Of a DNA stretch of 38,430 nt, positions 3,275-3,894 are shown piece after piece. Position 1 is the stretch's first letter. Every line of letters begins with the position of its first letter. The notes beneath the pieces were generated by a model, which did no database searches, had not been told where the DNA came from, and saw nothing but the letters and a program-made list of their open reading frames with translations. This stretch comes from a virus, in the IMG/VR virus record IMGVR_UViG_3300025647_006322, positions 1 through 38,430 of that record. One strand, 5' to 3'. The position numbers and the translations under genes were made by a program.

Positions 3275-3303
3275 ATTTTAGACAAAAAAAAGGGGGAAGT
3301 CAA
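3275..3303 (-). promoter_or_regulatory. Sigma-70-like promoter nested in a terminator
   Basis: On the minus strand TTGACT (3298-3303) and TAAAAT (3275-3280) are separated by exactly 17 bases, as in the second promoter at 3866-3894, and both share GTC directly before the -10. The predicted start near 3268 leads straight into the 52-codon gene and then the 54-codon gene and thyX. The -35 box is the loop of the terminator at 3284-3309. Confidence 0.6.
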
Positions 3304-3309
3304 CCCCCC
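3284..3309 (-). terminator. Intrinsic terminator of the micro-gene unit
   Basis: On the minus strand a run of six G, a short loop (TTGACTT) and five C are followed directly by eight T. This is a textbook rho-independent terminator placed ten bases after the stop of the 32-codon gene. It closes the unit that starts at the promoter 3866-3894. Confidence 0.88.
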
Positions 3310-3318
3310 ACTCTAAGA

Positions 3319-3417
3319 TCATTTTTGAATTTTACTAAGAAGTAAAACTTCTCCGTAAATTAGACTAATGAATGCTATCATACCCAAAGAACTAAGTCCC
3401 AAGAGTTGAAAGATCAT
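3319..3417 (-). CDS. Membrane micro-protein (32 aa)
   Basis: The reading frame starts MIFQLLGLSSLGMIAFISLI and ends YGEVLLLSKIQK. It is almost entirely one hydrophobic segment with a short polar C-terminus, so a single-span inner- or thylakoid-membrane peptide is likely. A very strong Shine-Dalgarno sequence (AGGAGGAGAAG) lies directly before the ATG, and the start overlaps the preceding gene's stop as ATGA. It is the last gene before the terminator. The function is unknown; cyanophages carry many such peptides. Confidence 0.72.
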   Translation of the reverse strand: MIFQLLGLSSLGMIAFISLIYGEVLLLSKIQK

Positions 3418-3563
3418 TCTTCTCCTCCTACAATTATTACCTGTTTATCATGCTTAATACCACGATAAATTTCACTAAACCAACGCTTTTGTTGGTTTGC
3501 GTGTTGCTTTTCACGACGCTCTACGGTGTCGTATGTTACACCACGATAAACTACCTTTGCCAT
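3414..3563 (-). CDS. DUF4278-like small protein (49 aa)
   Basis: The reading frame begins MAKVVYRGVTYDTVERREK and ends VIIVGGEE. The opening beta-hairpin xVxYRGVxYD resembles DUF4278-type proteins common in cyanobacteria and their phages. The middle is basic and aromatic (HANQQKRWFSEIYRGIKH). A Shine-Dalgarno sequence (AGGAG) sits eight bases before the ATG. Its last codons form the Shine-Dalgarno of the 32-codon gene, and the two overlap by four bases. It is the second gene of the riboswitch-led unit. The function is unknown. Confidence 0.7.
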   Translation of the reverse strand: MAKVVYRGVTYDTVERREKQHANQQKRWFSEIYRGIKHDKQVIIVGGEE

Positions 3564-3630
3564 GATTTTACTCCTAAAGAAATGGAAAGTTAACCTTCTC
3601 TGCTTACGCAGGATCCGTATTCCCGTTCCT

Positions 3631-3801
3631 TCAGTCGTTTGCGTCCCAGTTACAAAAATCTCTTACTGTTACAGCGTCCTTAATCGTTTCTACAAGCTCA
3701 ACCTTTACGGCATCAGGTAGATCCGAATGATCTCTGATAGAGGAAATTAATTCTCTTGCCTCAGAGCAATTTAAGGTTGTATAAAGTAATAATTCAAACA
3801 T
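3631..3801 (-). CDS. Riboswitch-controlled small peptide gene (56 aa)
   Basis: The reading frame begins MFELLLYTTLNCSEARELIS, continues with SIRDHSDLPDAVKVELVETI and ends FCNWDAND. It looks like a small soluble helical protein with a hydrophobic N-terminal strand. It is the first gene after the glutamine-riboswitch-like leader, which is the position that gave the Downstream-peptide RNA class its name in cyanobacteria and cyanophages. The only Shine-Dalgarno candidate, GGAG at 3815-3818, lies inside the RNA element 13 bases before the ATG, so translation is probably governed by the RNA fold. The molecular function is unknown. Confidence 0.8.
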   Translation of the reverse strand: MFELLLYTTLNCSEARELISSIRDHSDLPDAVKVELVETIKDAVTVRDFCNWDAND

Positions 3802-3802
3802 G

Positions 3803-3858
3803 GGATGAACGATGCTCCGTTCCGCGACTTACTTGCGTCGGGTTTCCCCGATGAACGA
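3803..3858 (-). ncRNA. Glutamine-riboswitch-like leader (glnA / Downstream-peptide class)
   Basis: Read on the minus strand: CGTTCATC (3850-3857), a GGG-GAAA-CCC hairpin, GACGCAAGTAAG, then TCGCGGAACGGAG and a second CGTTCATC (3804-3811) next to the ATG. The order CGUUCAUC / hairpin / GACGgAAGUAgG / GGAACG is the conserved layout of glnA and Downstream-peptide RNAs, an established L-glutamine-binding class found in cyanobacteria and cyanophages. P1 would be CGUUC paired with GAACG (3818-3822). The predicted transcription start, about seven bases after the -10 box, coincides with the first base of the element. I matched it from memory, not with a covariance model. Confidence 0.8.
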
Positions 3859-3860
3859 CA

Positions 3861-3875
3861 GGTCTATTATAGACC
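3861..3875. repeat. Palindrome over the -10 box
   Basis: GGTCTAT-A-ATAGACC is a perfect 7-base inverted repeat with a one-base centre, containing the -10 hexamer TATAAT of the riboswitch promoter. Its position suggests an operator, or simply a chance extension of the self-complementary TATA core. Confidence 0.55.
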
Positions 3876-3894
3876 CGATATTCTATATAGTCAA
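3866..3894 (-). promoter_or_regulatory. Near-consensus sigma-70-like promoter of the riboswitch unit
   Basis: TTGACT (3889-3894) and a perfect TATAAT (3866-3871) are separated by 17 bases. The arrangement is that of host sigma-70/SigA promoters, so early expression by unmodified host polymerase is inferred. The predicted start near 3859 begins the glutamine-riboswitch-like leader. Confidence 0.85.

Follow-up and report, generated by a model that had tools for sequence, protein, structure and literature searches.

In the IMG/VR virus record IMGVR_UViG_3300025647_006322, which was analysed over its whole length of 38,430 bases (the window), a small unit of three genes on the minus strand appears to hold a riboswitch that is folded around its first gene. 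Comparison with related units supports the conclusion that the RNA upstream and the RNA downstream of this gene (gene 1) pair into one aptamer with a three-way junction, consisting of P1, P2, loop E and P3. Gene 1 lies within the P3 arm, which is 197 nt long in the window. The unit is likely to be a glutamine-I (glnA-type) riboswitch variant with a gene in its P3 arm, for which ligand binding is predicted. With somewhat less assurance we also favour a wider reading. The aptamer would be built around the gene, its letters serving at the same time as ribosome-site hairpin, C-terminal codons and stop, so that binding and translation exclude each other; cyanophages would fill the P2 and P3 arms with different small genes or with none; and among the published marine "tandem" glutamine riboswitches there may be single interleaved aptamers.

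The upstream half of the aptamer consists of CGUUC, P2, CGCAAGUA and AGUCG, the downstream half of CGACU, GAA and GGAACG. In the window (all features are given on the minus strand) the P1 5' strand CGUUC (3853..3857) has its partner at 3624-3628, across gene 1. It is followed by the P2 hairpin UCGGGGAAACCCGA (3838..3851), whose pairs 3-5 covary strongly and whose loop can house a second open reading frame (ORF) in other phages, and by the core strand CGCAAGUA (3830..3837) with the AGUA side of loop E. The P3 5' strand AGUCG (3825..3829) has its partner CGACU at 3633-3637. The P4 hairpin GGAACG-GAGCAU-CGUUC (3807..3823) contains the likely Shine-Dalgarno sequence of gene 1, GGAG (3815-3818), and the P5 5' strand UCCC (3802..3805) abuts the gene 1 start codon and pairs with GGGA (3644..3647) within Trp and Asp codons of gene 1. 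The downstream aptamer half (3623..3637) comprises the P3 3' strand CGACU (3633-3637), GAA of loop E (3630-3632), the P1 3' strand GAACG (3624-3628) and G3623; from 3623 to 3647 the RNA is composed of the last codons of gene 1, its stop and the next bases. In the relatives, conserved DNA continues past the start of gene 1: a second CGTTCATCCC abuts the start codon, and the gene ends in GGGACGCAAACGACTGAAGGAACGG. Loop E was assigned from sequence (AGUA within 3830-3837, GAA at 3630-3632). Loop E and the long-range pair of glutamine riboswitches are described in PMC6698751, and by analogy with glutamine-II, C3835 and G3623, which stand opposite each other, would be the long-range partners.

A preliminary description of the site had taken the leader before gene 1 as the glutamine-binding RNA. 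This reading fails the covariance-model check that it had itself proposed, as an Rfam scan of the window found no family at gathering score. At permissive settings the leader reached 24.3 bits against RF01739 (glnA RNA, glutamine-I; E 0.009 for 801 bases, cut-off 35) and 17.1 bits against RF01704 (Downstream-peptide RNA, glutamine-II; cut-off 33). Its folding energy as a single strand was ordinary (z -0.32). RF01704 had no match in the window's own record, but as the control genomes gave none either, this negative carries no weight. The leader scores below the cut-off because the other aptamer half sits where gene 1 ends and in the bases that follow (3623-3647), and since the score is under the gathering cut-off, the window is classed as a variant and not as a regular RF01739 member.

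Related units were collected by collection scans, and the counts of loci given here are among the matches listed (80 of 144 relatives were kept). The assignment to the glutamine riboswitches follows from those relatives in which a short hairpin replaces the gene (an example from other viral contigs is CGTTCATCCCTTCGGGGACGCAAACGACTAAAGGAACGG), because they pass the RF01739 cut-off. In six of ten such loci a single RF01739 match of 86-97 nt above the cut-off runs across both halves. In a seventh (L181, a short-hairpin locus with an ORF elsewhere in its unit) the match above the cut-off has 52 nt. In a separate scan three of nine loci were matched, one of them (L074) by a single match of 99 nt. 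Thus the family proposed in the preliminary description stands, by way of these relatives; its restriction to the leader does not. The RF01739 features present in the window are a P1 that closes the junction, a P2 hairpin after CGUUCA, loop E with P3, and the long-range pair. All five P1 pairs are present in 260 of 261 distinct units; the remaining one (L133) is a parsing misfit.

The family assignment is weakened by several results in addition to the low score of the leader. RF01739 did not match three of the ten short-hairpin loci (L144, L156 and L226, the last at a contig end), and none of five ORF-bearing isolate loci had an Rfam match. The long-range pair is C with G in all of 162 distinct units, where the RF01739 consensus has G and C; 161 other units have CGC with a G partner against CGG with C in the consensus, so that the pair appears to be kept but swapped. 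Given this swap, an altered ligand is conceivable. The nested fold could then be real and bind something other than glutamine, or a protein, for example the gene 1 product in an autoregulatory loop. Besides the changed consensus position and the fact that glutamine binding of the unit is a prediction, the gene 1 family speaks for this possibility, as it is enclosed in the unit wherever examined. On the other hand, units without an arm gene, some of them without gene 1 altogether, pass the glutamine-I cut-off, and a C-G long-range pair is the form found in glutamine-II (C19:G41; PMC6698751). In addition, the downstream genes are DUF4278-like, and in cyanobacteria glutamine aptamers are associated mainly with DUF4278 genes (PMC6316151). 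We therefore consider a different ligand or a protein partner unlikely, and retain the glutamine-I variant.

Because the strands repeat, two topologies are possible. In the nested topology, P1 is made up of the first 5' strand and the last 3' strand, and P4 is a hairpin of the inner two strands; in the tandem one, each half is closed on itself. The tandem topology corresponds to two ordinary glutamine aptamers, of which the second would carry gene 1 in the loop of its P2; they would bind independently and give steeper control of the downstream genes. This was our initial reading, for which it speaks that CGUUCA...GGAACG occurs in both halves and that tandem glutamine riboswitches have been published (157 doublets and 4 triplets, PMC9481103). 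The window's own letters allow both pairings, so that for the window the tandem form is rejected on the strength of its relatives.

To separate the topologies, letters 4-5 of the P1 and P4 strands were left free in the 261 distinct units. One letter set, with which full tandem pairing is also possible, was found in 246 units, compensatory sets in 12; the remaining three (L133, L193, L328) are parsing misfits or insertions. Nine of the compensatory units have P4 CAACG/CGUUG, two have this together with P1 CGUUU/AAACG, and one has CGUUU/AAACG alone. In all 12 the nested P1 and P4 stay at five of five pairs, whereas the tandem alternative loses one or two. P4 varies in 11 of the 12, in diverse surroundings; the three units with the P1 variant (L259, L299, L365) are probably one lineage. 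Since at least four of five P3 pairs and three P2 pairs were required, this is no test of P3 or P2. In the first unit of L328 the insertion lies within the P4 loop, with GGAG kept in place.

P3, formed between the bases that follow CGCAAGTA and those that precede GAAGG, covaries between the halves. It occurs as AGUCG/CGACU, AGUCA/UGACU, AAUCG/CGAUU, GGACGG/CCGCCC and other types, and all 162 distinct units have pairs 1, 2, 4 and 5, and 134 have pair 3 (pair counts are taken from anchored parsing, because the MAFFT alignment A5 misplaces P3). In 161 of these units neither half alone has both loop E strands of glutamine-I. The exception, L083, is also the sole unit in which the topologies differ at the long-range pair, and there the pair forms only when nested. 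Both L083 and L086 have a fuller glutamine-I core in both halves and may be intermediate between true tandem and interleaved aptamers.

P2 and P5 also close around ORFs. The third P2 pair forms in 41 of 41 cases (24 C-G, 17 U-A; shuffles mean 31, max 36) and has 9 changes on the best tree, both sides changing together. The fourth P5 pair forms in 124 of 126 (shuffles mean 108, max 114). In the 62 further distinct units of a sample that was fetched by a later motif alone (the later-motif sample), the same patterns recur for P2, P3 and the Shine-Dalgarno sequence, with P2 pair 3 around the ORF in 34 of 34 (shuffles mean 30, max 33). When the two constrained folds are compared by nearest-neighbour energy, the nested one is favoured in 76 of 83 ORF-bearing units, but only in 21 of 33 short ones.

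Several findings weigh against the nested aptamer or limit how far the counts carry. Single halves can look like family members on their own: L129 has 32.8 bits for its second half and 19.1 for its first, in L241 a 47-nt match to the second half alone passes the RF01739 cut-off, and in L149 a stretch of 51 nt passes the glutamine-II cut-off with 34 against 33 bits. The counts overstate independence because the sequences are related; on well-supported branches there are only two independent P2 pairs, both concordant, and only three independent P5 pairs, of which 1.4 are concordant on average. The pattern used to fetch the loci L120-L239 itself prescribes some letters of the downstream half. In nearest-neighbour folding the unconstrained ensemble lies at least 8 kcal/mol below both the nested and the tandem form. 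P4 is without GGAG in 19 of 210 ORF-bearing units, including 7 of the 11 P4 variants. Since the halves of L129, L241 and L149 score separately, the RNA may also adopt the tandem form as an alternative, and a strand exchange between nested and tandem forms is possible as the switch. As the only structure of the unit, two tandem aptamers are nevertheless improbable; they were ruled out as our working reading by the Rfam matches of 86-97 nt, P3 and the compensatory units.

The nested aptamer leaves room for genes at two places. In 210 of the 261 distinct units the P3 arm contains an ORF of at least 40 codons; a long P2 loop occurs in 83, of which 76 also carry an ORF in the arm. The P4 hairpin contains GGAG in 191 of the 210 units with such an ORF versus 3 of the 51 without, and in the later-motif sample in 48 of 53 ORF-bearing units and 1 of 9 short units. 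In 120 of 126 cases the stop codon of the arm ORF is the UGA or UAA that belongs to the aptamer, and in 114 of these 120 the C-terminus is Asp-Ala-Asn-Asp. Many of these loci were fetched by a pattern that fixes part of the C-terminal letters (the Asp-Ala-Asn-Asp and stop region); 66 units were fetched in other ways, and the 41 of them that have an arm ORF carry the same downstream letters with few variants. These counts support the view that aptamer letters double as C-terminal codons, Asp-Ala-Asn-Asp in most members, and as stop. Differences at codon positions 1/2/3 are distributed as 0.33/0.14/0.53 in the arm ORFs and 0.27/0.19/0.53 in the P2 ORFs, and the arm length is a multiple of three in 120 of 126. 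Because of these codon-position differences and lengths, the ORFs in both places look translated. The P2 ORFs listed mostly have 65-68 codons and end just before the core; in four units the P2 ORF extends into the core, where AAG-UAA gives the stop. A match to phrog_6471 was obtained for two of three P2 ORFs tested, the one of 75 codons being the exception; the P2 ORF of L084 had no match.

The downstream half is also kept where it is not needed as coding sequence for gene 1. It persists where the ORF has an early stop or comes from a different family (L046, L111, L118, L121, L159) and in units without an ORF. This contradicts a leader-only riboswitch before three ordinary genes, in which the conservation past gene 1 would stem from the ribosome site of gene 2 or from the protein sequence. 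The leader does match RF01739 weakly; the covariation of the downstream with the upstream half, across gene 1, rules out the leader alone as the aptamer, and very little speaks for this explanation now. The remaining explanation, a DNA-level cassette border (a recombination site) for the exchange of small ORFs, would account for the different ORF families, or none, that fill the same two slots, and such exchange may also occur, but it leaves the pairing unexplained, and covarying stems with UUCG- or GNAA-type loops in many units, as in structured RNA, and a unit start 7-9 nt past a -10-like hexamer in 128 of 162 units make it the least credible of all. Five short-arm units (L051, L065, L067, L074, L083) are directly followed by a relative of gene 2.

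How the nested aptamer might work can be proposed from this layout. Glutamine would close P1 around the gene-bearing P3 arm. In the closed form the Shine-Dalgarno sequence would be held in P4, with the gene 1 start beside P5; conversely, a ribosome ending at the UGA of gene 1 would cover P3, loop E and the P1 strand. As the closed RNA would hide Shine-Dalgarno sequence and start, and the terminating ribosome would cover the aptamer strands, closure and translation of gene 1 most likely exclude each other. Less certainly, high glutamine might lower gene 1 and, by analogy with characterised glutamine riboswitches, favour the downstream DUF4278 and membrane-peptide genes. In the glutamine-II switch the gene is turned on by glutamine (PMC6698751), and glutamine-I in gifB is described as likewise on with glutamine (PMC6316151). 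The predicted rise of gene 2 was not seen in a folding test of units with short P2 (n=116, those of the 162 with a recognised gene 2 Shine-Dalgarno sequence), which counts against this part of the mechanism: the accessibility of that sequence was equal in the nested and tandem forms, 0.40/0.40 and 0.37/0.37.

The borders of the unit largely agree with the preliminary description. The sigma-70-type promoter TTGACT-17-TATAAT that it had named lies at 3866..3894 and matches the consensus in 11 of 12 letters. The aptamer starts 8 bases past the -10 hexamer, and in 128 of the 162 related units a -10-like hexamer ends 7-9 nt before it; the aptamer start would therefore coincide approximately with the expected transcription start, as had been proposed for the leader. 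The three ORFs are present: gene 1 (3631..3801, 56 codons; phrog_504, T4-like cluster GC 430), gene 2 (3414..3563, 49 codons; phrog_5049; Shine-Dalgarno AGGAG at 3571..3575) and gene 3 (3319..3417, 32 codons), which encodes a membrane-type peptide with relatives at the same place in many loci. The intrinsic terminator (3284..3309; stem 3309-3292, then T8) was found as well. It is overlapped by a promoter-like TTGACT-17-TAAAAT (3275-3309), which could start the next small genes. The site and most features had thus been recognised correctly; the boundary was wrong, as gene 1 does not follow the aptamer but lies inside its P3 arm.

Between aptamer and gene 2 there is a structured motif, ACGGAUC-hairpin-GAGAAGGUUAA (3590..3618). 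It stands 4-8 nt past GGAACG in 103 of 111 new loci; its hairpin covaries and often has GNAA or UUCG loops (L255-L365). At permissive settings no plausible Rfam match to it was found in the window. Possibly it is an RNA element without a name so far.

Gene 1 is predicted to fold into a two-helix hairpin (mean pLDDT 77). Of its two cysteines one is invariant and the other present in at least 90% of 36 aligned relatives; no match in the PDB was found at E<=0.001. The P2 ORFs match gene 1 in a profile comparison over 38 columns with 51% probability (E 0.00015), and on account of this probability and length the arm and P2 ORFs are called only probably related. A host origin of gene 1 was discarded, as a profile that recovers the window gene at 6e-25 has no match in 151 genomes from the family of a Prochlorococcus genome. 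The protein of gene 2 scores 18.0 bits against DUF4278 (PF14105), below the cut-off of 25.3, but 18 of 19 aligned proteins, including that of the window, match DUF4278 at E<=0.01 (best 1.9e-06), so that the DUF4278-like protein of the preliminary description holds. This likeness is the sole link of the peptides to host nitrogen metabolism, on which they had been suggested to act. DUF4278 is a domain of the N-terminal part of IF17, and this part is reported to be dispensable for IF17 function (PMC6316151). PirA, initially considered as the DUF4278 relative, was dropped, as the PirA paper was retrieved without the term DUF4278.

The relatives of this marine cyanobacterial virus are cyanophages: DNA of the region matches 360 of 50,697 phage records (Synechococcus 302, Cyanophage 54, Prochlorococcus 4) and gene 1 matches 309; the layout is thus probably present in hundreds of phage records. 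Of 23 phage records, selected for similarity to the region's genes, 22 contain the unit with an ORF-sized arm, among them Syn9 and P-HM2, which have ORFs in both slots. The neighbours in the fetched relatives include thymidylate synthase, phoH, nrdB, talC and glutaredoxin, a neighbourhood typical of T4-like cyanophages. The remaining record, podovirus P-GSP1, which was fetched for a P2-ORF relative, has this relative alone, without the unit: in this Prochlorococcus phage (L254, ~901-1053) an unannotated P2-ORF-like ORF lies between a high-light gene and psbA, without an aptamer. In a Prochlorococcus genus RF01739 was found in one of 61 genomes, below the cut-off and in a contig with the phage-type unit, and RF01704 in 21 of 21 sampled genomes. 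Two contigs of genome collections with the phage-type unit, L240 (Prochlorococcus sp. AG-418-C09) and L241 (labelled Rhodospirillaceae), are probably phage DNA in single-cell or metagenome assemblies.

The counts given above depend on how units were parsed. For the 162-unit set, 12 candidates were not parsed (four without a second core, four without 5'b, three without 5'a, one without 3'b), and candidates in which no GGAACG follows the core were passed over uncounted, among them the CAACG variants found later. The later-motif sample had 111 new loci, of which 73 were parsed into the 62 distinct new units and 38 were not counted. Of the latter, 20 have CGCAC for CGCAA in the second core and are otherwise the same, seven are at contig ends, three are without a canonical P4 strand (two compensatory, one insertion) and eight without GGAACG (four of the AAACG type, four seemingly unrelated).

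The usual picture of a riboswitch is an untranslated leader before a gene. Here sensor and gene would be interleaved, which would offer a virus a simple way of linking a small protein to the nitrogen state of its host. The nested layout explains why standard searches miss such switches, and it bears on the interpretation of tandem glutamine riboswitches. A gene nested in a riboswitch aptamer was not found in the titles and abstract openings of the literature searched, with Ames and Breaker 2011 and Klahn 2018 outside that scope. Coding sequence placed in the loop of a structured RNA is familiar from introns with an ORF in a peripheral loop; unlike in those, the fold here is a riboswitch aptamer.

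Among the glutamine riboswitches, the unit shares with glutamine-I (RF01739) P1 CGUUC/GAACG, P2, loop E AGUA/GAA, P3 and a long-range pair, and its short-arm relatives pass the cut-off. It differs in its gene-enclosing 197-nt P3 arm, in a C-G instead of a G-C long-range pair, in the extra stems P4 and P5, and in that relatives may hold a second ORF in P2. With glutamine-II (RF01704) it has in common a CGCA core, the C-G long-range pair and small downstream genes including DUF4278 (PMC6316151). However, glutamine-II is a pseudoknot fold (PMC6698751) with its ORF after the aptamer and not inside (PMC2864571), and the window scores only 17.1 bits against it. Yfr6 of Prochlorococcus, an RNA of ~240 nt with a 5' end of Downstream-peptide type and a short ORF (PMC1242208, PMC2864571), is similar, but it is a cellular gene and its ORF is described as following the aptamer. 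IF17 (gifB) is made under glutamine-riboswitch control (PMC6316151), and gene 2 resembles its DUF4278 N-terminal part; the gene 2 protein, in contrast, has 49 residues and consists of the DUF4278-like domain only. The published tandem glutamine riboswitches likewise show two 5' strands and two 3' strands in succession (PMC9481103), whereas in the unit described here the strands would pair crosswise, giving one aptamer that encloses a hairpin and usually a gene.

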